From Clostridia bacterium (GTDB taxonomy: Bacteria; Bacillota_A; Clostridia; Christensenellales; Aristaeellaceae): a stretch of 35,702 nucleotides of DNA. This document shows positions 18,033 to 29,023 of this stretch, piece after piece (positions within the stretch are counted from its first letter, which is position 1; each line of letters opens with the position of its first letter). Under the pieces are notes generated by a model. The model worked only from the letters and a program-made list of their open reading frames with translations. It did not search any database and was not told the DNA's origin. Where the stretch lies: NCBI GenBank assembly GCA_017525805.1, contig JAFXSH010000134.1, positions 1-35,702 on the forward strand. The letters run 5' to 3'. A program made the position numbers and the translations under genes.

Positions 18033-19496
18033 TCAGAACACGGTATTCAGGAAACGCTTTAAGCCCTCCTGGCCCGCTTCGTCCTGCTTGTACACGCCCG
18101 CGTCGCACAGCACCTGATAGCAGGTATCGGCCACCGCCTGGTGCAGCGCTTCTTCCGCTTGCTTTTGGTTTAAACTCCGCCCCGTTTTTTCCGCGATTTC
18201 TTTTGCCCACGCTTCGTGGCTGCTTCCCTCGGGGATATCGCCCGCGCCCATCAGATAAGGTTCCAGGGCCTTCAGTTCCGTCTTGAGCCGTCCGGGCAGG
18301 ATGAACAGGCCCATCACCTCGATCAGGCCGATATTCTCTTTTTTAATGTGATGCAGGTTGGCGTGGGGATGATAGATGCCCAAGGGGTGCTCGGCGCTGG
18401 TGCGGTTGTTGCGCAGCACCAGGTGCAGCTGATACCGGCCATCCGGCAAGACGCGCAGGGTGGGCGTCACGGTATTATGAGGCGCGTCGGTTTCGGCGTA
18501 AATGCCCAAGGATGGGTCGCTGTACTTCCGCCAGGCTTCCAGCACCTTCATGGCGATGTTTTTCAGTTCTTCCGCATCGGCACTCACAAAGCGCAGGCAG
18601 GTCATGGGCCAGTCCACCACCCCGGCGCTGGCTGGGCCGTCAAAAGTCCATTTGACGGGGGCCTTGTCCATGGGGAACAGGTGCCGCCCGCCCTGATAAT
18701 GGTCGTGGGTGAGGATAGAGCCGCCCACGATGGGCAGATCGGCATTGGCTCCGATGAAATAGAAGGGGAATTTGTCCACGAAATCGAACAGCCGGTCGAA
18801 GCTCTTCCGGGTCAGCTTCATGGGTTCGTGCACCCCGTCCAGCACGATGCAGTGCTCGTCGAAATAGAGATAGGGGGAATACTGGAAATACCATTCCTCC
18901 CCCGCCAAGTTCAGGGGAATGATGCGGTGGTTTTCCCGGCCCGGAAAGCCCGCCCGGCCCGCGTAGCCGGGATTTTCCTTGCACAGCATGCACAGGGGAT
19001 AGCCGGATTTGGGGGCATTCCGCGCGGCGGCGATGTCCCGGGGGTCCTTTTCAGGCTTGGATAGGTTGATGGTGATTTCCAAATCGCCGCAGGGGGAGGG
19101 GGCCGTGTATTGGATATTCTGGGCGATGCGCTTCACCCGGATATAATCGATATCCCGGCACAGCTGATAAAACCAATTGGCGGCCGCTTCCGGGCCTTGG
19201 CTTCCCATGGTTTCATAAAAGGTCCTCCGCACCGCCGCCGGGTGAGGGGTGAAAGTCCCCGCCAGTCGGGCGATGATCCGGTCTTTTTCATCGTTGGTAT
19301 TGGGAATCATATCCGTCTGCGCGGCCCATTCCGCCAGTTCCGCCAGGCAGTCGGGAATATCTTCGCCGATCAGTTCCCCTTCGGCGGGGGCGTCCAAATG
19401 CAGGGCGTCCAGCAGCAGATTTTGGGTATAGGCCCGGTCCTCGGGCAGCACTAAGCTTTTTTGTTCCAGCAAATCCAGCAGCCGATCCAGCAGCAT
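18033..19496 (-). CDS. galT: UDP-glucose-hexose-1-phosphate uridylyltransferase, class II
   Basis: Leloir-pathway enzyme exchanging UMP between UDP-glucose and galactose-1-phosphate. 487 aa, the length of the Firmicutes-type (class II, GalT2) family. The nucleotide-transfer histidine motif appears as THDHYQGGRH, following GANADLPIVGGSI. YPLCMLCKEN supplies a cysteine pair, and GIYHPHANLHHIKKENIGLIEVMG is the conserved C-terminal segment, given here in parts. The start is ATG 19496, with GGGAGG eight bases upstream inside the end of the TraB gene. Longer in-frame sequence upstream overlaps traB and is not homologous. No galK or galE is in the window. Confidence 0.95.
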   Translation of the reverse strand: MLLDRLLDLLEQKSLVLPEDRAYTQNLLLDALHLDAPAEGELIGEDIPDCLAELAEWAAQTDMIPNTNDEKDRIIARLAGTFTPHPAAVRRTFYETMGSQGPEAAANWFYQLCRDIDYIRVKRIAQNIQYTAPSPCGDLEITINLSKPEKDPRDIAAARNAPKSGYPLCMLCKENPGYAGRAGFPGRENHRIIPLNLAGEEWYFQYSPYLYFDEHCIVLDGVHEPMKLTRKSFDRLFDFVDKFPFYFIGANADLPIVGGSILTHDHYQGGRHLFPMDKAPVKWTFDGPASAGVVDWPMTCLRFVSADAEELKNIAMKVLEAWRKYSDPSLGIYAETDAPHNTVTPTLRVLPDGRYQLHLVLRNNRTSAEHPLGIYHPHANLHHIKKENIGLIEVMGLFILPGRLKTELKALEPYLMGAGDIPEGSSHEAWAKEIAEKTGRSLNQKQAEEALHQAVADTCYQVLCDAGVYKQDEAGQEGLKRFLNTVF

Positions 19497-19503
19497 ATGA
19501 TGA

Positions 19504-20403
19504 TTACCTCCCGATTTCTTCCACGGTATAGCCCAATCGGGCCAGTTTTTCCGCCAATCCGTTTTCACCGATGATATGGAACGCGCCAATGGCGATCAGC
19601 GCCGTTTTTCCGCTGTTCAGGTACGCGATGGCCTGTTCTTCAAAGCCGTCGTTGCGGCTGTCGATCAGGGTAGCGCTGTATTCGGCGTAGGCGTCGCTCA
19701 ATTCTTCGTCCCCTTCGGTGGACGCTTCCAGCAGGGTGCGCAGGCCTGCTTCGTCTCCCTGCCGCCAGGCTTCAAACAGCGTAAGCAGGCCCTGAGCGGA
19801 TTCCTCGGGGTAGGTCAGCATGGCCTGCACCTCGTAATCGATCACATCCTCGGGAATCGCCAGCAGCGTGGCCATCTGTTCTTCCAGGCTTTCCAGCTCG
19901 TCGATTTGCTTCCCGTCCCTGTGGGCCTGTTTCAGCAGGCCGTAATCCACGCCCTTCGTTGCGTCAAGCCCGGCTTTTTCAATGATATAGTTTTCCGCCA
20001 GGGAATACCACATGGCGGGCTTCATCCGCTGGAGCGCGATCTCCGGCATGCCTAAGCATTTTACCCCCAAATCGTAGGTTTCGGGGGACAGATGATTCCT
20101 GATATTGTCCTGCACGCCGTACATGAGGGAGAAAGCGGTCTTCATGGTGCTCAGCAGATTGCCGCCGTAGGCGTACACGTCCATTTCCACCGCCACGACA
20201 TCGGCGTTTGCATACGCCTCCTCTACCGCACCGCCCAGGGGGTACATGTTGTCATTGCCCACGTGGATGGTGCCCAGCAGATACAGCACGTGCCCCTGCC
20301 CGTCCGTGACACGGTAAACCAGCGGCGCGCTTTCGGCCCCCGCCGCGTAGGGCTGCAAGAGCAGCGCGGCGGCAATCAGGCCGGTCAACAGTCTCTTTTT
20401 CAT
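19504..20403 (-). CDS. TraB/GumN family (TIKI-like) secreted protein
   Basis: 299 aa with a signal peptide (KKR, hydrophobic core, AGAES cleavage region near residue 23). The mature part opens with YLLGTIHVGN, the GxxH motif (Gly44, His47), and ends with IAIGAFHIIGENGLAEKL, the second conserved glycine/histidine motif of the TraB/PrgY/GumN superfamily. Eukaryotic TIKI members are metalloproteases that use these residues. Bacterial homologues such as GumN are of unclear function. No lipobox, so probably exported into the wall space. It is the first gene of a four-gene unit, with galT following after seven bases. GGAGG precedes ATG 20403 by about ten bases. Confidence 0.88.
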   Translation of the reverse strand: MKKRLLTGLIAAALLLQPYAAGAESAPLVYRVTDGQGHVLYLLGTIHVGNDNMYPLGGAVEEAYANADVVAVEMDVYAYGGNLLSTMKTAFSLMYGVQDNIRNHLSPETYDLGVKCLGMPEIALQRMKPAMWYSLAENYIIEKAGLDATKGVDYGLLKQAHRDGKQIDELESLEEQMATLLAIPEDVIDYEVQAMLTYPEESAQGLLTLFEAWRQGDEAGLRTLLEASTEGDEELSDAYAEYSATLIDSRNDGFEEQAIAYLNSGKTALIAIGAFHIIGENGLAEKLARLGYTVEEIGR

Positions 20404-20455
20404 TCTAATTTTTCCTCCAAATAAGAAAATTCAGAAAGTGTGAAGTTTTTTATAG

Positions 20456-20484
20456 ATTGCAATGCCGCCCAGGAAGCTTGTGAA
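20456..20484 (-). promoter_or_regulatory. Possible promoter of the traB-galT unit
   Basis: TTCACA (20479-20484) and TGCAAT (20456-20461) on the minus strand, 17 bases apart, lie in the AT-rich gap 20404-20560. One and two mismatches from consensus. The gap also holds a GTGTGGAGCGTGGAGTGTGG near-repeat and nothing else recognisable. Confidence 0.4.
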
Positions 20485-20560
20485 CAAAGCATATACACAT
20501 AATATAACACCACACTCCACGCTCCACACTCATTGATCACAAACTGGGAATTTCCAATAT

Positions 20561-21385
20561 TCAAGGAACAACGCTTTCCGCCTCCGCGGGCCGCTTCCGT
20601 CCGGCGGTGAGCAGCGCCAATGCCGTCAGGATGGGCAGAATATACAGCACGCTTTCCGGCGCGCCGAACCATGCCGCGATGCCCCGGATCAGAGTGAGCA
20701 GCAGGACGGCCCCCAGTGTGCGGAAGGGGCCGTACTTCCCGGTCCAGGCAATGGCCAGGGCCGCGTAGCCCAAACCGCCCACGCCCCAGGCCATGCGCCA
20801 GCCGGCGCCTAAGGAAAGCAGGGCCGAAAGCCCTCCGACGCCCCCTAAGAACCCGGAAAACACGAGGCCCAAGCCCCGCGCCCACCGAACGCGCGCCCCG
20901 AGCCTTTCCGGCGCGGCGCTTTGGCCGCACAGACGCAGACGCAGGCCCCAGCGGGTATGAAAAAGCAGCAGCCAGGCGATCAGGGTCAGGACGAGAGCCA
21001 CGGGCAAAAACACCGTCACGTTTTCCCCGTACAATTCCAGCCAATAGCCCTTACGGGTATAGCTGACGCCCCCCATCAATTGAGCGGCGGCCATGGCAGC
21101 GGCGGCGGCGAAGCCGTTGAAGGCCACCCCTGCCAGGACTTGATTTTGCCTGCGCCGCAAAAGGAGAAGACCCCAAAGCAGGGCCGCCGCCGCGCCCGCG
21201 CCCCCCGCCGCCAGCAGGGAAATCCAGGCGGGCTCGTGGGAAAACAGCACGCCGGTGAGACCGCCGCTTAGCATCACGCCCTCCAAGGCGAAAAGCGTCA
21301 CGCCGCCGCGTCCGGCGGCGTTGGCGGCCATGGCGCCCAGCAGCAGGGCCGCAAAAAACAGCGAAAGAGAAGCGGTAAAGGTCAT
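20561..21385 (-). CDS. Divergent nucleoside-type ABC permease (second copy, C-like)
   Basis: 274 aa, about eight membrane segments, alanine/glycine/leucine-rich. It is alignable by eye with the canonical permease at 23935-24963: LFALEGVMLSGGLTGVLF corresponds to LALEGIMIFGAFMGVLF, and TRWGLRLRLCG to TRFGMRLRSCG. This places it in the BPD_transp_2 family that includes YufQ/NupC-type nucleobase and nucleoside importers. It is about 70 residues shorter than the canonical copy. It overlaps the preceding permease by four bases (ATGA) and is the last gene of its unit. No clear terminator is visible after it. Confidence 0.8.
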   Translation of the reverse strand: MTFTASLSLFFAALLLGAMAANAAGRGGVTLFALEGVMLSGGLTGVLFSHEPAWISLLAAGGAGAAAALLWGLLLLRRRQNQVLAGVAFNGFAAAAAMAAAQLMGGVSYTRKGYWLELYGENVTVFLPVALVLTLIAWLLLFHTRWGLRLRLCGQSAAPERLGARVRWARGLGLVFSGFLGGVGGLSALLSLGAGWRMAWGVGGLGYAALAIAWTGKYGPFRTLGAVLLLTLIRGIAAWFGAPESVLYILPILTALALLTAGRKRPAEAESVVP

Positions 21386-22371
21386 GCTTTCCGTCCCCCT
21401 TTCCCGCGCCGGAGCGCAAAACAGGCGCAGCAGTACAGTATCAGCGCCAGCACCGCTTCACCCATTTCCGGGGAGAACACAGCGCCGTTCATGGCGCCCG
21501 CCCCCAAGGACAGGTATTTCACCGCCGCGGCGGCAAGCACGGCCCCTAAGGGATGTCCTCCCGCCAGGGCGGCGGCGGCCAGCCCGTGCAGCCCCGGCCC
21601 TGTGAGCGCCAGGGAAAGGTCGGGCAGTTGATTCACACCGCCCAGCAGGTAATCCAGGCCCCCCGCCGCGCCGCCCAGCAGCCCGGATAAGCACAGGACC
21701 AGAAACATGGTTTTTCCCGTATCCGCGCCAGCGTACCGGGCCGTTTTTTCCGACGCGCCCAGCAGCCGGATGTCCAGCCCCGGCACGGTGAATTTGAGGC
21801 CAAGCCAGACGAGCAGGGCCAGCCCTCCCGCGATCAGCGCCGCCGGAAGAAATAAACCGGCCTCCTGAGGCTGTTCCCATACGATCAAATCGGAAAGCGC
21901 CTGCAGGGCATACAAGGCCAGCCAGGCGGTGAGCGCCGTGCCTAAGGCTTCTTTGAGACGGAGCCGCGCTTTCAGCACTCCCGGCACAGCGCCCCACAGG
22001 GCGCCTGTTATGGCGGAAACGGCTAAACAGACGTACCACGGCAGACCCGCCAGCGACGTGCACAGCATGGCGGCGGCAGCGCCCAAGGCGTAGAGCCCCG
22101 CGCCGCCTAATTGCGGCATGCCCCCCCGCCAGGCCAGAGAAATTCCCAAGGCCAGCAGCGCGTCCGGGGCGGCCCTGCCCAGCAGGGCAAGGGGGCCGTC
22201 CCGCCAGCCGCCGGTGAACAGGGGCAGCAGCCCTTCCCGCCAGACGGTTTCCAGCCGGATTTCCCCCAGGGACAGCCAGCTGACACCTATCATCGCCGCC
22301 GCGCCAAGGAGCAGTCCCATGCACAGGCAAAGCGCGGCCCGCGGAAGCGAACGGAAGCTCTTATTCTTCAT
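21382..22371 (-). CDS. Divergent nucleoside-type ABC permease (second copy, B-like)
   Basis: 329 aa, with about nine membrane segments. It resembles the YufP/NupB-type permease at 24963-26219 in GALWGAVPGVLKARLRLKEALGT (in part) versus GALWGAIPGLLKAYLNINEVLAC, and in LLGASEKTARYAGAD versus ACGANRYAARYAGIQ. The periplasmic insert of about 60 residues present in the canonical copy is missing, which explains the shorter length. It overlaps the degenerate ATPase gene by 11 bases and the next permease by four, so all three are translationally coupled. The composition is unusually rich in Gly/Ala/Leu, with high GC at third positions. Confidence 0.8.
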   Translation of the reverse strand: MKNKSFRSLPRAALCLCMGLLLGAAAMIGVSWLSLGEIRLETVWREGLLPLFTGGWRDGPLALLGRAAPDALLALGISLAWRGGMPQLGGAGLYALGAAAAMLCTSLAGLPWYVCLAVSAITGALWGAVPGVLKARLRLKEALGTALTAWLALYALQALSDLIVWEQPQEAGLFLPAALIAGGLALLVWLGLKFTVPGLDIRLLGASEKTARYAGADTGKTMFLVLCLSGLLGGAAGGLDYLLGGVNQLPDLSLALTGPGLHGLAAAALAGGHPLGAVLAAAAVKYLSLGAGAMNGAVFSPEMGEAVLALILYCCACFALRRGKGGRKA

Positions 22372-23770
22372 CGAAGCGCTCCTCTCCGCCCTGCCGCCGT
22401 CCGGTCATATACAGGCCCAATTCCTTTTCCGTGGTTACGGAGGGGTCAAATTCCCCGGTGATTTCGCCCTGATACAAGGTCAGCACCCGATCCCCCGCCA
22501 GCAGCGCTTCCCGGGCGTCCGAGGTGAAAAGCACCACCGCCCGCCTTTCATCCCGCAGGGTGATCAGGCGGTTCCAAATATCCCGGGCCGCGTTCTCTGA
22601 AAGGCCCTGGGTCGGGTCCAGCACCGCCAGGGCGTGTATATTCCCGTCCGTTTCCCGTGTCAGGGCGCAGCGCCGCCTGTTTTCGGAGGTTTCTTCCTCT
22701 CCCCGCCGAATACTCAGCCAGGTCATGGCGTCCTCGGCGTAGCGGCCCATTTCGCCCTTGCGAAGAAACCCGCTTTCCTGAAACGCCGGCTCCCTGTACC
22801 GGCGCAGGGCCATGCTTTCTCCCATCGAAACGTTGCCCAGAGGGAAGCCATAATCCATTGCAGGCCCCGGCACGCAGGCAATGCCCGCCCGCACGCGCTC
22901 CCGCACAGAATAATCGTTGATTTCCCGCCCGTTCAGCCGAAAACGCCCCCCGGAAAGGGGCAGCGCGCCGGTCAGAGCGTCCAGCAAAGCCTGCTTGCCG
23001 CTGCCGGGCAGACCCGCGATTGCTAAAATCTCCCCCGTCCGGGCTTCAAAAGAAACGTCCTTTAAACCGTTGCCCGTTATATTCCTCGCTTCCAGCACCA
23101 CGCTGCCCACGGCGATGTCCAGCCGATCCGGGGGCGTGTCGTCCGGTTCCGGGGAAAGAACGTCGCGGGCGTCCGCCAAGGCGGCGGCATAGTTACGGCA
23201 GGTAAGCATCAGCACGATTTTCCCCTGCTGGCAGGCTTTGCGCATTCCCGCCGCCAGCGTTTCCAATTCCAGGGGCGTCAGGGCCGCTTCCGGCTGGCAC
23301 AGCACAAGGATTTCGCTATTCCGCAGCAGGGCCAGCAGGATTTCGCCCCGATACCGATCCCCGGCGGAAAGATTTCCGGCGGGCTCGATCAAATCCACGG
23401 AAAACCCGTATGCTTCGCACAGGGCTTCGGCCTTTTCCCGTGCTCTTTTCCTGCCGCCTAACATGCCGGGCAGCAGCCGGATATGATCCGTAAGATTCAG
23501 ATTCGGAGCCAGAGCGCTTTCCGGCGCAACCACGGAAACGCCCCTTTTCAGCGCGGCCCTGGGCGAACGGGGAAAAAAAGGCTTCCCGTGAAGTGTATAT
23601 TTCGCTCCACCGTCGCGGGAAAAGCCCCCCAGCCCACCCGAAAGGAGCGCGCAAAGAGACGGCTCCGTCAGCGCGGCACGGAATTCTCCCGCACGCGCTT
23701 TCAGCGAGCCTTCTCCGTTCCCTTCCGAGGGAATATGCTCAATTTCAAGGGCGTAATCTGTCATGGGCAA
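22361..23770 (-). CDS. Degenerate double ABC ATPase (nucleoside/sugar type)
   Basis: 469 aa, parallel to the canonical ATPase at 26216-27769 but eroded. In the first half the Walker A site is replaced by ALLSGGLGGF (residues 41-50, no lysine-serine pair) and Walker B reads ILVLCQPEAAL, with Cys158-Gln159 instead of Asp-Glu. The signature survives only as LSAGD. The second half keeps a full Walker A (GLPGSGKQ, 253-260) and a Walker B-like LAVLDPTQGLS, but the signature SGGNQQ is replaced by ALTRETDGN. The C-terminus RVLTLYQGEITGEFDPSVTTEKELGLYMTG, in parts, matches the family. TTG 23770, with AAGGA upstream, is the likely start. ATP hydrolysis would be impaired or confined to one composite site. 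Confidence 0.82.
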   Translation of the reverse strand: MPMTDYALEIEHIPSEGNGEGSLKARAGEFRAALTEPSLCALLSGGLGGFSRDGGAKYTLHGKPFFPRSPRAALKRGVSVVAPESALAPNLNLTDHIRLLPGMLGGRKRAREKAEALCEAYGFSVDLIEPAGNLSAGDRYRGEILLALLRNSEILVLCQPEAALTPLELETLAAGMRKACQQGKIVLMLTCRNYAAALADARDVLSPEPDDTPPDRLDIAVGSVVLEARNITGNGLKDVSFEARTGEILAIAGLPGSGKQALLDALTGALPLSGGRFRLNGREINDYSVRERVRAGIACVPGPAMDYGFPLGNVSMGESMALRRYREPAFQESGFLRKGEMGRYAEDAMTWLSIRRGEEETSENRRRCALTRETDGNIHALAVLDPTQGLSENAARDIWNRLITLRDERRAVVLFTSDAREALLAGDRVLTLYQGEITGEFDPSVTTEKELGLYMTGRRQGGEERFDEE

Positions 23771-23826
23771 AGCGTTTCCTTCTCCGTTCCCGATCCGCCG
23801 CGCGTCGCTTCGCGGTTTTCGCTTTC

Positions 23827-23855
23827 ATTATAAAGGAAACGGGAACGCTTGTCCA
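23827..23855 (-). promoter_or_regulatory. Sigma-A promoter of the degenerate ABC operon
   Basis: TGGACA (23850-23855) and TATAAT (23827-23832) on the minus strand, 17 bases apart. The -10 is perfect and the -35 has one mismatch. It lies between the terminator at 23889-23921 and the TTG start at 23770, so the second ABC set has its own transcription start. Confidence 0.78.
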
Positions 23856-23888: not shown

Positions 23889-23921
23889 CAAAAAAGGACG
23901 CGCTCCCGCGGGAGAGCGTCC
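23889..23921 (-). terminator. Rho-independent terminator of the bmp ABC operon
   Basis: On the minus strand a GC-rich hairpin (GGACGCTCTCCCGCGGGAGC, then GCGTCC; 23896-23921) is followed directly by seven U residues (23889-23895). It lies 14 bases after the stop of the last canonical permease gene. Confidence 0.9.
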
Positions 23922-23934
23922 ATGAAAAGCCGCG

Positions 23935-24963
23935 TTACCGCATACCCTGATCGTAGGGAATGCCCTCCGCCTTGGGCGCCCGGGAGCTCTTGGACGTAAA
24001 GGCCAGCACCACCAGGGTAACCACATAGGGGAACATGCGGTAAATATTTGTGTTGATGTTCAGCTCCTTGAGCATATACACGCCGTCTCCGTTGATGTCC
24101 AGGGTGGAATAGGAAGCGGCGATGCATTTGAAGAGCCCGAACAGCAGGGCCGCGCCGCAGATATTCAGCGGTTTCCAGTTGCCGAAGATCATCACGGCCA
24201 GGGCCAGGAAGCCGAAGCCCGCCACATCGCCGTTGGCGGAGCAATTGGCGGTGGTGAGCACGTACACAAAGCCGCCCATGCCCGCCAGCGCCCCGGAAAT
24301 CACGGTGCCCGCGTAGCGCATCCTGATCACGTTGATGCCCAAAGAAGCGGATGCCTGGGGGTTTTCACCGCAGGACCGCAGGCGCATGCCGAACCGGGTC
24401 TTATACAGGATGATGGACATGATGACGAACACCAGGATGCAGATATAGGTGGCCACATAGACCTTATCCACGAAGGTAGAGCCGAAGAAGCCCATTTCCT
24501 CCTTGCGGCCGTAGCCGAACATGGATTTCTTCAGCATGAACCAGTCGGCCGCGCCGTTGCTGATATTCAGTGTGTTCTGGTTGGCGATCATGCGGATGAA
24601 GAACAGCACCACGGCCGGGGCCAGCAGATTCAGCGCCGTGCCGCCGATGGTCTGATCCGCCTTCAAATTGATGGCGGCGAAGGCCAGCAGCAGGCTGAAC
24701 AGCGCGCCCATGGCGGCGGCGAACAGCATCGCCAGGAAGCCGAAGCTCTGCAAGGCGAAAACGTTTTTGGCCTGATAGGCCTCCGCGAACCAGCCCCATT
24801 CCTGCACCGTGCGCACGAACAGCACGCCCATGAACGCGCCGAAGATCATGATGCCTTCCAGGGCCAGGTTGATGATGCCGCTGCGCTCCGCAAAGACGCC
24901 CGCCAGGGCCACCAGCATCAGCGGTACCGCGTAAATCAGCGTTTGACGAATCAAAAACGGCAT
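23935..24963 (-). CDS. Nucleoside ABC transporter permease (YufQ/NupC type)
   Basis: 342 aa membrane protein of the BPD_transp_2 family, about nine to ten segments. RSGIINLALEGIMIFGAF at residues 27-44 is the typical N-terminal motif of the second permease of Bmp-linked nucleoside or nucleobase importers. Another conserved stretch is TRFGMRLRSCGENPQAS..GI, followed by a second glycine-rich helix ALAGMGGFVY. It forms the channel together with the preceding permease. Its ATG overlaps the upstream stop (TAATG). It is followed by a terminator and ends the canonical operon. Confidence 0.92.
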   Translation of the reverse strand: MPFLIRQTLIYAVPLMLVALAGVFAERSGIINLALEGIMIFGAFMGVLFVRTVQEWGWFAEAYQAKNVFALQSFGFLAMLFAAAMGALFSLLLAFAAINLKADQTIGGTALNLLAPAVVLFFIRMIANQNTLNISNGAADWFMLKKSMFGYGRKEEMGFFGSTFVDKVYVATYICILVFVIMSIILYKTRFGMRLRSCGENPQASASLGINVIRMRYAGTVISGALAGMGGFVYVLTTANCSANGDVAGFGFLALAVMIFGNWKPLNICGAALLFGLFKCIAASYSTLDINGDGVYMLKELNINTNIYRMFPYVVTLVVLAFTSKSSRAPKAEGIPYDQGMR

Positions 24964-26219
24964 TACTTGTTCACCGCCTTTCTGCTGCGCAGCTTCCCGA
25001 TCCAGGTCTTGATCACCAGCATGAACGCGGACAGATACACGATCACGGCGATGATCACGTTGGTGATGTACTCGTTGTACGCCGTCAGTTCCGTCAGCTT
25101 CTGGCCGCAGATTTGCAGCATGGACATAAAGACCGCCGAGAAGATCACGCCCAGGGGATTGTTGATGGCCAGCAATGCCACCGGGATGCCGTTGAACCCT
25201 TCCGAGGGCAGGGACTGATAGGTGTTCCAGAAGAATTCCGTATTGCCGGACAGATAGTACAGCGCGCCGCCGCCCGCGGCCAAAGCGCCCGCCAAAGCCA
25301 TGGTGAGCACGATGTTCCGCCGATCCTGAATGCCCGCGTACCGGGCGGCGTAGCGGTTGGCGCCGCAGGCCTTGAGTTCATACCCCAGGGTGGTTTTCGC
25401 CAGCACGATGTAAATGACGACGGCAATGAGAATGGCCACCAGGATGCCGCCGTTGACTTGACTGCCGGAGAACAGCTGATCCAGGCCCAGCTTGGCCGTT
25501 GCTACGCCGCCCCGGGTGGCCACCACCTGGGCGCCCTCGGGCACGTTCGCGCCCACCGTCTGCCGGACGCCGTCGATGATCACGTCGTTCATCACCGTGG
25601 AGGTTTTGTAAATGTAACTGGACTTGGTGCCCTCCAGCACGTTTTTCAGGTTGCTCACGTCGAACAGCCAGGTGACCATGTTGGCGGCGATCCAGTTGGT
25701 CATGATGCAGGCCAGCACTTCGTTGATATTCAGGTAAGCCTTGAGCAGGCCGGGAATAGCGCCCCACAGCGCGCCCGCCATCATGCCGGCCAGGAACGCC
25801 GCCAGCCACACCAGCCACACAGGCAAAACATTGGTGGGAACGGACAGGGACACATACAGGCTGGCCGCGGTACCCGCCAGATACTGGCCCGCCGCGCCGA
25901 TGTTGAACAGGCCCGCCTTGTTGCCCAGGGCCACGGAAAGGCCCGTCATGATCAGGGGTACGGCCCGGAACAGCATGTTGCCGAAGGAGGCGGGATTAAA
26001 GCCGAAAACCAGGCTGCCCGCCGTGTCGCGGCCCTTGGCGAACAGGCCGGCCACCACCAGGCGGATGCCCTCCAGCGCGCCGCCTATGCCTAAGGTGGGG
26101 GTGGTCAGGCCCACGATCAGAATGACCAGGCCGCCCGCCAGCATGCCGATCAGGATGGCGACCAGGGACGCCAGCACGCTGCGGGTGCCGGCCTTATCCC
26201 AGAAAGATTCTTTCTTCAT
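24963..26219 (-). CDS. Nucleoside ABC transporter permease (YufP/NupB type)
   Basis: 418 aa membrane protein of the BPD_transp_2 family. AVPLIMTGLSVALGNKAGLFN (in part) and GALWGAIPGLLKAYLNINEV are characteristic of the first permease of Bmp-type nucleoside importers. A hydrophilic insert of about 60 residues (roughly 195-255, containing SYIYKTSTVMND and VATRGGVATAKLG) probably faces outward. The motif ACGANRYAARYAGI precedes the coupling region. AGGAGG lies ten bases before ATG 26219, which overlaps the ATPase stop (ATGA). Confidence 0.92.
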   Translation of the reverse strand: MKKESFWDKAGTRSVLASLVAILIGMLAGGLVILIVGLTTPTLGIGGALEGIRLVVAGLFAKGRDTAGSLVFGFNPASFGNMLFRAVPLIMTGLSVALGNKAGLFNIGAAGQYLAGTAASLYVSLSVPTNVLPVWLVWLAAFLAGMMAGALWGAIPGLLKAYLNINEVLACIMTNWIAANMVTWLFDVSNLKNVLEGTKSSYIYKTSTVMNDVIIDGVRQTVGANVPEGAQVVATRGGVATAKLGLDQLFSGSQVNGGILVAILIAVVIYIVLAKTTLGYELKACGANRYAARYAGIQDRRNIVLTMALAGALAAGGGALYYLSGNTEFFWNTYQSLPSEGFNGIPVALLAINNPLGVIFSAVFMSMLQICGQKLTELTAYNEYITNVIIAVIVYLSAFMLVIKTWIGKLRSRKAVNK

Positions 26220-27769
26220 GCGCTCGCCTCCTTCCCCGGCTGCTGCCGCTTCGCGCCCGCCATATATAGGCCCAGTTCCTCCACCGTGGTCTTCTTGGGA
26301 TCCAGCTCGCCCACGATCTCGCCTTCATACATGACCAGGATCCGGTCGGACAGGTTCATGACCTCATCCAATTCTAAGCTTACCAGCAGCACCGCTTTGC
26401 CCGCGTCCCGCTGGGCCACGATCTGCTTGTGAATATTTTCGATAGCGCCCACATCCAGGCCGCGGGTGGGCTGAACGGCCATCAGCAGCGGCAGGTCCCG
26501 GTCGATTTCCCGGCCTACGATGGCCTTCTGCTGGTTGCCGCCGGACATGGAACGGGCGATGGTGACGGGCCCCTGGCCGGAACGCACGTCGTATTCCTCG
26601 ATGAGCCGTTCGGCGTACTTGCGCACTTCCCCGAATTTGATAAAGCCCATCTTCTGGAAACGCGGTTCCTCATAGGATTGCAGCACCATGTTCTGTTCCA
26701 GCGTGTAATCCAGCACCAGTCCGTGCTTGTGCCGGTCCTCGGGGATATGGCTGATACCCGCCTCGCTGCGCTTACGGATGGGCGCGTGGGTTATATCCAC
26801 GCCGCCCAATTCGATTTTGCCGCCGGTGCACTTTTCCAGGCCGGACAAGCCGAACACCAATTCCGACTGCCCGTTGCCGTCGATGCCCGCGATGCAGACG
26901 ATTTCTCCCTTCCGCACCTCGAAGCTGACGCCCTTCACGGCGTCGTGCTTGTACAGCCGGGACGCCACGCGCAGGTCTTTTACCTTCAGCACCGTTTCCC
27001 CCGGGTTCGCGGGCGCTTTGTCCACCACCAGCTGCACGTCGTGGCCCACCATCATGCGGCTCAGCTCCACGGTGGTGGTTTCGCTGGTGTTCACGGTGCC
27101 GATATAGCGGCCCTTGCGCAGCACGCTGACCCGATCGGATACCTCCATGATCTCGTTCAGCTTATGGGAGATGAAGAGGATGGATTTTCCTTCCTTAGCC
27201 AGCCCCTTCATGATCTGCATGAGCTCGGTGATTTCCTGGGGCGTCAGCACGGCGGTGGGTTCGTCGAAAATCAGCACCTCGTTATCCCGGTACAGCATTT
27301 TCAGGATCTCCACCCGCTGCTGCATGCCCACGGTGATATCCTCCACTTTGGCGTCCAGATCCACCGCCAGCCCGTAGCGGTTGGACAGTTCCTCAATCTT
27401 TTTCCGGGCCTCCTTGCGCTGTACGAAGCCCAGCTTGGTGTCCTCCGCCCCCAAAATGATATTGTCCAGCACGGTAAACACTTCGATCAGCTTAAAATGC
27501 TGGTGCACCATGCCGATATGCAGCGCGGTGGCGTCGTTGGGGTTGTTGATCCTGACCGGCTTGCCGTCCTTGCGGATCTCACCCTCCTCCGGCTGGTACA
27601 GGCCGAACAGCACGCTCATCAGCGTGGATTTCCCCGCGCCGTTTTCCCCCAGCAGGGCGTGGATCTCTCCCCGCCGCAATTGCAGGGTAATATCGTCGTT
27701 GGCCTTGATCCCCGGGAATACCTTGGTAATATGCAGCATTTCGATCACATAATCGTTCTCGTGATCCAA
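26216..27769 (-). CDS. Nucleoside ABC transporter ATP-binding protein (YufO/NupA type)
   Basis: 517 aa with two fused nucleotide-binding domains, as in the sugar/nucleoside (CUT2-like) group. The first domain is complete: GENGAGKST, signature VGMQQRVEI, Walker B VLIFDEPTAVLTPQE. The second has the usual deviant Walker A GIDGNGQSE, with signature SGGNQQKAIV and Walker B-like LLMAVQPTRGLD. It energises import by the two following permeases. The likely start is TTG 27769, preceded by GGGGGTGA. An internal ATG at 27739 has a poor ribosome site. A terminator-like hairpin separates it from the upstream binding-protein gene, which would reduce its expression relative to bmpA. Confidence 0.93.
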   Translation of the reverse strand: MDHENDYVIEMLHITKVFPGIKANDDITLQLRRGEIHALLGENGAGKSTLMSVLFGLYQPEEGEIRKDGKPVRINNPNDATALHIGMVHQHFKLIEVFTVLDNIILGAEDTKLGFVQRKEARKKIEELSNRYGLAVDLDAKVEDITVGMQQRVEILKMLYRDNEVLIFDEPTAVLTPQEITELMQIMKGLAKEGKSILFISHKLNEIMEVSDRVSVLRKGRYIGTVNTSETTTVELSRMMVGHDVQLVVDKAPANPGETVLKVKDLRVASRLYKHDAVKGVSFEVRKGEIVCIAGIDGNGQSELVFGLSGLEKCTGGKIELGGVDITHAPIRKRSEAGISHIPEDRHKHGLVLDYTLEQNMVLQSYEEPRFQKMGFIKFGEVRKYAERLIEEYDVRSGQGPVTIARSMSGGNQQKAIVGREIDRDLPLLMAVQPTRGLDVGAIENIHKQIVAQRDAGKAVLLVSLELDEVMNLSDRILVMYEGEIVGELDPKKTTVEELGLYMAGAKRQQPGKEASA

Positions 27770-27822
27770 AGCGCCGTCACCCCCTGTTCATCATGCCGCA
27801 ATTGGTTTGTCTGCGGATTACA

Positions 27823-27854
27823 GAAAAACAGGAAGGGCCCGAGGCCCTCCCTGT
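27823..27854 (-). terminator. Intra-operon terminator after the bmpA-like gene
   Basis: On the minus strand ACAGGGAGGGCC, a three-base loop, and GGCCCTTCCTGT form a 12-bp stem with one mismatch, followed by UUUUUC. It lies 16 bases after the stop of the binding-protein gene and before the ATPase start, a usual way to make more binding protein than transporter. Confidence 0.85.
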
Positions 27855-27869
27855 ATGAAATGTGCCGGA

Positions 27870-28970
27870 TTACTGGATATAATCCACATTCACGTTGCTC
27901 CAGGGGCCCTTCACATTGGGATCGCCCTCGGCAGCCTGATCGTCGATCACCAGCGCGCCGGACACGATATCGGCCATCATGGCGTCGTAATCGGCGGCGG
28001 TGAAGGTTTCCAGCTTGGAGGTTTCCATGGGCAGGCCAACGGCGTTCTGGGCGGCGCCCAAGGTGATGACGCCGGGTTCCCAGGTGCCGTCAAACACCTT
28101 GGCCAGCGCCTGATAAGCGCCTTCCTGCACACCCTTCAGGGCGGAGATGATCACGGTATCGGACAGGAAGGACTGGTCGCTGTCCACGCCGATCACAAAC
28201 GCGTCGTTGGCGGAGGCGGCGGCGGTGATGGAGTCAAACATGGGGCCGCCGCAGGCGAACACGATTTCTGTGCCGGTTTCGTACCAGCCGGAAATCAGGG
28301 TCTGCAGTTCGGCGGAAGCGGAGAAGGAGGCGCCATAAGCCCAGCTGAACTTGATTTCAACGTTCTTGCCCAGCTTCGCGGCCGCGTCGTTGGCACCCTG
28401 GATGAAGCCGTAGCCGTAACGGCAGCAGGCAGGATTGGTGCCGCCGCCGCCGCCGGAGAAGCCCAGCTTCTCAAAGCCATCGATGACCACGGAATAGCCG
28501 GCCAGATAGCCGCACTGCTCTTCCTTGTACACAACGCCCACTTCGTTGTCCAGGCCCATGGCCCAGCCGTCGATGAAGATGAACTTCACTTCGGGGAATT
28601 CCTTGGCGGCCTTTTCCAGCGCGGCGCCCTGCATGAAGCCGGCGCATACGATAGCCTTGGCGCCCGCGTTCGCGGCGGCCTTCATGGCGTCGTAGCGGTC
28701 GTCGTCGGTGGCGGCGTTGCCGTTGGCGGGCTTGTAATACTTGTAGCTCAGGCCGTTGTCATAAGCGTAGAGCTTCACACCGTTCCAGGTGCCTTCGTTG
28801 AAGGACTTATCCTTCAGGTCGCCCACGTCGGTGACGAACGCGATTTCGTATTTGCCGTCGGCGGACGTCATGTTGTCTTCGATTTCATCGGGTTTGGCAG
28901 TCTCGGCCAGGACACTCACGGTGCCTAAGCACAGAGCCAGCGCCAGCAAGAGAGCAACGATCTTCTTCAT
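27870..28970 (-). CDS. BMP-family substrate-binding protein
   Basis: 366 aa extracellular binding protein of the Bmp/PnrA family (PF02608), which captures purine nucleosides or related compounds for the adjacent importer. After the signal segment (MKKIVALLLALALCLG) the mature protein opens with YEIAFVTDVGDLKDKSFNEGTW (in parts), the family's hallmark. Later FIFIDGW and VGVVYKEEQCGYLAGY follow, and the conserved acidic IGVDSDQSFL. The start is ATG 28970, with GGGAGG eight bases upstream. The longer frame from 29015 would cross the promoter. No canonical lipobox is seen: LALC lacks a small residue before the cysteine, and VLA-E could be a type I cleavage site. It is the first gene of the operon. 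Confidence 0.94.
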   Translation of the reverse strand: MKKIVALLLALALCLGTVSVLAETAKPDEIEDNMTSADGKYEIAFVTDVGDLKDKSFNEGTWNGVKLYAYDNGLSYKYYKPANGNAATDDDRYDAMKAAANAGAKAIVCAGFMQGAALEKAAKEFPEVKFIFIDGWAMGLDNEVGVVYKEEQCGYLAGYSVVIDGFEKLGFSGGGGGTNPACCRYGYGFIQGANDAAAKLGKNVEIKFSWAYGASFSASAELQTLISGWYETGTEIVFACGGPMFDSITAAASANDAFVIGVDSDQSFLSDTVIISALKGVQEGAYQALAKVFDGTWEPGVITLGAAQNAVGLPMETSKLETFTAADYDAMMADIVSGALVIDDQAAEGDPNVKGPWSNVNVDYIQ

Positions 28971-29023
28971 GAATTGTGCCTCCCATATTATAATGTAGAC
29001 GGCCCCACAGGTCATCTGTCGGT

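Follow-up and report, generated by a model that had tools for sequence, protein, structure and literature searches.

A fused ABC ATPase and permease trio in Clostridia that may be a former nucleoside-type importer kept by selection without its catalytic site

Downstream of a complete BMP-dependent importer, contig JAFXSH010000134.1 of a Clostridia bacterium (assembly GCA_017525805.1; the whole 35,702-nucleotide stretch analysed is referred to as the window) carries on its minus strand (20561-23764) a trio of genes for a fused double-cassette ATP-binding cassette (ABC) ATPase and two permeases. Tentatively, we regard this trio, which a group of gut bacteria has in common, as a former importer; selection would have maintained its membrane complex, which would now act as a passive gate, by either facilitated diffusion or exchange. 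The sequences show that the catalytic site is gone and that each of the three genes is under selection; they also show a recognizable coupling-helix region, a shortened permease loop and a conserved promoter belonging to the trio itself. From these features we infer that the complex would work independently of ATP and of a binding protein.

The degenerate ATPase gene (22361-23764, minus strand) codes for 467 residues from an ATG at 23764. The open reading frame extends to a TTG at 23770, yet the ATG is the likelier start, being preceded by GGAGAAGG. The genes for permease 1 (21382-22371, 329 residues) and permease 2 (20561-21385, 274 residues) follow on the same strand with overlaps of 11 and 4 nt, in agreement with the three open, tightly overlapping genes reported in a preliminary description of the region. 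That description had also placed a canonical importer upstream and noted that the set lacks a binding protein. Pfam bears out both points, as no BMP gene was found by it inside the trio and one is part of the adjoining canonical set. Both permeases carry the BPD_transp_2 domain (PF02653), and the ATPase has a single PF00005 (ABC_tran) match, with only cassette 2 above the threshold. NCBIfam models of sugar-importer ATPases match it with scores below their cut-offs. Nevertheless, it has the two cassettes on one chain that define the fused ABC fold.

In canonical relatives, the catalytic residues reside in site 1 (Walker A1/B1 together with signature 2), while site 2 is degenerate even there (GNGQ, AVQPT). 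The window ATPase has lost all four elements of catalytic site 1 (Walker A1, Walker B1, H-loop 1 and signature 2). On the minus strand, the Walker A1 site reads TEPSLCALL instead of GENGAGKST (23642-23668) and Walker B1 reads LVLCQPE instead of LIFDEPT (23288-23308); the His of H-loop 1, the Gln of Q-loop 1 and signature 2 are gone too. A signature-like motif of cassette 1 (LSAGDRYR, 23348-23371) is kept, and the P-loop of cassette 2 (GLPGSGKQ, 22991-23014) has the Lys but not the Ser/Thr that should follow it. The loss of Walker A1 and the absence of signature 2 had been correctly recognized beforehand, and the losses in H-loop 1 and Q-loop 1 come in addition to them. The second Walker A, by contrast, had been called proper, which holds for its Lys in the window but not for the following residue.

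To see how general these losses are, we turned to the best 120 of the 470 matches (E <= 0.001) that a protein search with the trio ATPase gave. These best 120 include 30 orthologues with 62-100% identity to the window ATPase (P0008-P0037; 29 full-length sequences and the fragment P0035); P0008 differs from the window ATPase at two residues. Walker A1 is absent from all 30 readable rows (the window and 29 orthologues). All 31 aligned rows lack the Walker B1 Asp, the H-loop 1 His and signature 2, and P0015 alone among them has the Q-loop 1 Gln. The losses of Walker A1, Walker B1 Asp, the H-loop and signature 2 are thus common to the orthologues. The Cys-Gln pair, described earlier as replacing the catalytic Asp-Glu, is real in the window but confined to a subclade of 12 of the 31 rows (the window and P0008-P0018), whereas the other 19 have lost Asp and kept Glu.

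A broader motif census compared 42 degenerate with 53 intact-type ATPase rows; P0035 was left out of the 42 and of the phylogenetic trees. The H-loop His and the first Gly of signature 2 are present in none of the 42 degenerate rows and in all 53 intact-type rows. The Walker A1 Lys and the Walker B1 Asp, likewise universal in the intact type (53/53), are each found in only 8 of 42 degenerate rows, and the Q-loop 1 Gln is kept in one. Further losses vary by lineage. Type A, which includes the window, has lost Walker A1 but still shows signature 1 and the glycines of P-loop 2. In type B (6 rows), Walker A1 and the Walker B1 Asp are kept in 6/6, and both signatures and P-loop 2 are lost. The least degraded row, that of genome G015, still has both Walker A1 and Walker B1, together with a trace of signature 2. 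Seven genomes also have no second permease. This pattern fits an early disappearance of hydrolysis followed by different additional losses in different lineages. Since the degenerate sets have lost the very site that is catalytic in their canonical relatives, they have very probably lost ATP hydrolysis.

The selective regime was assessed with a pairwise codon-model script, using ten pairs for each trio gene (the window and loci L001-L004). The ratio of nonsynonymous to synonymous substitution rates (omega) is 0.18-0.23 for the ATPase, 0.16-0.24 for permease 1 and 0.18-0.30 for permease 2. It is below 1 in all 30 pairs, with a likelihood-ratio statistic against omega 1 of at least 34.6. Five ATPase pairs with L016 were dropped from the range because their synonymous divergence (dS) is saturated. 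Internal stops are absent from the trio genes of the loci compared, so that neither broken frames nor an omega near 1, the marks of a pseudogene, are seen. Among the controls, omega is 0.02-0.05 for the canonical ATPase and 0.005-0.10 for the canonical permeases (three pairs each), 0.06-0.10 for the galT-type gene (ten pairs) and 0.21-0.38 for the TraB-family gene (three pairs). Values of 0.16-0.30 point clearly to purifying selection on the trio, weaker than that on the canonical importer. The selection on a kept role that had been proposed for the trio is therefore supported: among its orthologues, the motifs are not intact and the frames are not interrupted by stops, and omega lies well under 1. 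Decay specific to one strain was rejected in view of the 29 full-length orthologues among the best 120 of 470 matches and the low omega. A hidden overlapping gene was also considered as the cause of conservation and rejected. Synonymous identity is 0.70-0.85 along the ATPase gene; it climbs to 0.93 solely in the final 16 scored codons, where the start region of the next gene overlaps. For many type B pairs dS is saturated (0.69 to 24.8), and their omega values are only indicative. Between the type B loci L065 and L067, dS is 0.69 for the degenerate ATPase and 0.18 for the adjoining canonical ATPase, a gap possibly due to recombination or to rapid turnover of the degenerate set.

In permease 1, the span W150-G198 has 47-69 residues in 46 degenerate rows versus 74-104 in 15 BMP-linked rows, without any overlap (fragments P0138, P0153 and P0158 and the intact row L108 were left out). 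In the structural model, a helical bundle with a predicted local distance difference test score (pLDDT) of 82, this loop lies at the helix end away from the coupling region and therefore probably faces the binding protein. Its shortening suggests that BMP docking has probably been lost in the degenerate complex. The coupling-helix region of permease 1, which we located from general knowledge, is recognizable in the rows shown of types A and B and of genomes G015 and G021. By sequence, neither trio permease has a relative in the PDB at E 0.001. By structure, the permease 1 model matches type II importer permeases, although weakly (best E 0.0024; TM-scores of 0.38-0.48 for the ABC matches). The ATPase model corresponds to a fused ABC protein (pLDDT 87, predicted template modelling score 0.86), and its best Foldseek matches are Mycobacterium tuberculosis OppD/DppD structures 8j5q and 8wdb (query TM-scores of 0.64 and 0.70). 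The alignments behind both models included canonical rows, which favours the parental fold.

Site-by-site conservation in 26 degenerate ATPase rows bears almost no relation to that in 20 canonical rows (correlation 0.06; the near-duplicates P0008, P0012, P0014 and P0016 were omitted). Conservation of the site-1 motifs drops from 0.978 in canonical to 0.807 in degenerate rows, a value as low being reached in only 1 of 460 circular shifts. In both trio permeases, hydrophobic and probably in-membrane stretches rank among the best-conserved parts (P0138, P0153 and P0158 were again left out).

Where the trio came from was approached through phylogenetic trees and a comparison of loci in 29 genomes of the genus of G002, the assemblies of which may be incomplete. 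The four named loci derive from metagenome assemblies (two from goat reticulum, one from red deer and one labelled uncultured Clostridiales). Degenerate sets were found in 15 of the 29 genomes. All 12 genomes that have a canonical ATPase at >= 90% identity also have the degenerate set. The remaining 17 comprise G003, G004 and G028 with the degenerate set, 13 genomes with a single importer ATPase, and G025 with neither. In those 13, the importer ATPase has 74-82% identity and a second set was not found at the threshold used; its motifs are intact in all eight that were read. A single complete importer followed by the TraB and galT genes occurs in G005 and G006, where its type is nearest to the degenerate set, and in G007 and G008, where it is nearest to the canonical neighbour. 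The canonical genes lie directly upstream of the degenerate set in 11 of the 15 set-bearing genomes and in the window. The canonical importer is followed directly by the whole trio in the window, G001, G002, G015 and G016, and by the degenerate ATPase with one permease in G017, G019, G021, G022, G023, G024 and G028, although the G028 contig carries just the last canonical gene. In G027, the trio and the canonical set are on separate contigs and other genes come after the canonical set. In G018, owing to a contig break, only permease 2 is visible and the canonical set is on another contig. G003 has the trio without an adjacent canonical set (the best canonical-like ATPase in the assembly has 51% identity), and in G004 the trio is at a contig end (best canonical-like ATPase, 36%).

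In the first ATPase tree, 33 degenerate rows form one clade (100/100) on a long stem (1.48), next to the G005/G006 type (96/80). In the second, 40 degenerate rows form one clade (100) next to the same type (83). Both trees came with long-branch warnings, and they were therefore rebuilt with type B only and with type A only. The degenerate stem still falls near the G005/G006/G020 types, without a firm exact place (a trichotomy, and support of 92/62). A midpoint-rooted tree with G015 and G021 does not on its own present the degenerate rows as a single clade. A recent copying of the present canonical neighbour was rejected, because the trio ATPase falls not with that neighbour but with the importer type that G005 and G006 have as their only set at this locus. 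Taken together, descent from a complete BMP-dependent nucleoside-type ABC importer appears to be the best explanation. Two irregularities were seen among the importers compared. The intact permease 1 of G020 (L017, 9505-10971) has 488 residues, with an extra charged stretch after the first helix that its relatives do not have. In G022 (L062, 1700-4397), the match to the canonical BMP is split in two and that to the canonical ATPase lacks 67 residues at its start, which may be either an assembly error or real damage.

The trio also has a control region of its own. Its promoter (TGGACA-17-TATAAT, 23827-23855, minus strand) matches the consensus at 11 of 12 positions, and both hexamers and their spacing are identical in L001, L002 and L003, with one spacer change in L003; the earlier judgement of a good promoter thus stands. 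In L003 the promoter is kept although the upstream operon and DNA are different there. All five loci compared share the same 23 bases ahead of the trio ATG. Within 23765-23855, a stretch well conserved among related loci, CGTTCCCG lies near the promoter and its inverted copy CGGGAACG by the ribosome site; the repeat is perhaps an operator or a leader structure. A terminator-like hairpin with a T run (23901-23918, minus strand) separates the canonical set from the trio and occurs at the same position in L001 and L002. Across the region, the number of terminator-type hairpins is at chance level (6 versus 5.9 in shuffles).

How might such a complex function? The parent importer would have lost both the binding protein and the ability to hydrolyse ATP, while its membrane complex was retained under purifying selection. 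The ATPase protein would then clamp the permease pair from the cytoplasmic side without hydrolysing ATP, and the two permeases would pass a nucleoside, a nucleobase or a related solute down its gradient, for example to release breakdown products of the active importer's substrate. We consider a passive gate or exchanger the most likely role because the hydrophobic stretches rank so high in conservation in both permeases. The trio could thus be a natural ABC importer wholly converted into a passive gate or receptor that is free of both ATP and a binding protein, although we hold this only provisionally. With the same reserve, the genus may display the steps of such a conversion in its intact, partly degraded and fully degraded sets, BMP, H-loop and signature 2 being gone from all degenerate sets, followed by differing cassette halves and sometimes permease 2.

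Several observations weigh against a passive gate. In the seven genomes with a single permease, a two-permease channel would have to form from two identical permeases or borrow its second one. The putative substrate is deduced from homology to BMP, and transport itself is only predicted. The permease conservation scan had no canonical control. The helical part of cassette 2, which touches the permease in ABC proteins, shows only a marginal rise in conservation (0.719 to 0.869; 29 of 460 shifts as high). The ATPase is also not uniformly stripped, as 26 of 42 degenerate rows keep the Walker B1 Glu and 32 of 42 the signature-1 Gly. Finally, the P-loop 2 Lys (12/42) and the Walker A1 of type B make non-hydrolytic nucleotide binding possible in some lineages.

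An alternative that we regard as doubtful is a transport-dead sensor or regulator, in which the permeases bind solute and the dead ATPase signals to the neighbouring active importer or restrains it. SUR-like ABC proteins are a precedent for an ABC protein turned regulator. What places it directly after the gate is that the set occurs together with the canonical importer, both in the 12 of 12 genomes and in the 11 of 15 adjacent loci, and that one-permease forms exist. Even G003, without canonical genes, has a different nucleoside-type importer (ATPase 51%; L003, 5020-9748) diverging upstream of the trio, in the usual place of the canonical set. However, the co-occurrence may be a single inherited tandem arrangement, the two sets are separated in G027, and domain searches found no regulator or signalling domain in the trio proteins.

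It is rather unlikely that the complex is instead gated by ATP without hydrolysing it, through nucleotide held at the remaining half-site (P-loop 2 and signature 1 in type A, Walker A1 in type B). Type A mostly retains GxPGSG of P-loop 2 and LSxGDRYR of signature 1, and type B has both Walker A1 and the Walker B1 Asp in 6/6. The P-loop 2 Lys, found in none of the 53 intact-type rows, was gained in 12 of 42 degenerate rows from two separate lineages, which speaks for nucleotide binding there: 11 rows of the window subclade, all without Ser/Thr, and G016, which has a complete second Walker A (GLKGSGKS). ATP at the second site, as raised in the preliminary description, is therefore conceivable, but the other 30 of 42 rows have no such Lys. 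Furthermore, the segments in which the adenine-stacking aromatic would be expected are shortened in both halves in core type A rows, both signatures are lost in type B, and the Walker B1 Glu is missing in G021.

Slightly less probable again is an accessory role, with degenerate subunits mixing with canonical ones and borrowing their BMP or second permease. The two sets are adjacent in most loci, one-permease forms exist, and the coupling-helix residues are kept in types A and B. Against this, the permease 1 loop is shortened in all 46 degenerate rows, type A sets carry two permeases of their own, and G003 and G004 have the trio without a close canonical ATPase in their possibly incomplete assemblies. 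Sharing of the neighbour's binding protein, suggested earlier, appears less likely because of the shortened loops, G003 and the separate contigs in G027. Slow decay of a redundant copy is very improbable: although the trio ATPase has an omega at least four times that of the canonical ATPase (0.18-0.23 versus 0.02-0.05) and the lost motifs vary among lineages, all 30 trio pairs are far below 1 without internal stops, full-length orthologues occur throughout, the promoter persists in L003 and the TraB gene, not suspected of decay, has a similar omega.

The neighbouring genes, all on the minus strand, complete the picture of the locus. The upstream canonical importer (23935-29015) consists of a BMP (27870-29015), an ATPase (26216-27769) and two permeases (24963-26219 and 23935-24963). 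The trio is followed by a gene of the TraB/PrgY/gumN family (19504-20403, PF01963), which also comes after the set in L001, L003, L016, L018 and others, and by the reading frame of a galT-type uridylyltransferase (18033-19589), the syntenic anchor of the locus comparison. The gap between permease 2 and the TraB gene (20404-20560) is 157 bp in the window versus 12 bp in L016 and L018, and a small insertion is possible.

The usual view of ABC importers is that of ATP-driven pumps made of parts that belong together. Among the open-licence papers searched, we found no description of an importer with its catalytic site lost across a genus and its permeases kept. With the trio and its complete relatives at the same locus, one can test how an ABC permease behaves once its motor is gone and for what, apart from hydrolysis, the ATPase protein is needed. 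They also call for caution in annotation, as by Pfam families alone the trio looks like an ordinary ABC importer.

Among known systems, CFTR and SUR are animal ABC proteins that have turned into a channel or a regulator. They parallel the trio only in how they work, as an ABC scaffold in non-pump use, with no membership implied; they are exporter-type, occur in animals and still use nucleotide. OppD/DppD (8j5q, 8wdb), the best fold match of the ATPase model, share only 18% identity with it and are parts of ATP-using peptide importers. The BMP/PnrA importers (PF02608, PF00005 and two PF02653) have the same gene order, domain families, fused ATPase and permease pair, but the trio differs from them in having no BMP, no catalytic site 1 and a shorter loop in permease 1. 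ABC exporters with one degenerate nucleotide site are well known (reviewed in PMC7756269) and resemble the trio in that a loss of catalytic residues has been kept by selection. The other site of these exporters still hydrolyses ATP, whereas the trio has lost the catalytic site of its parent family.

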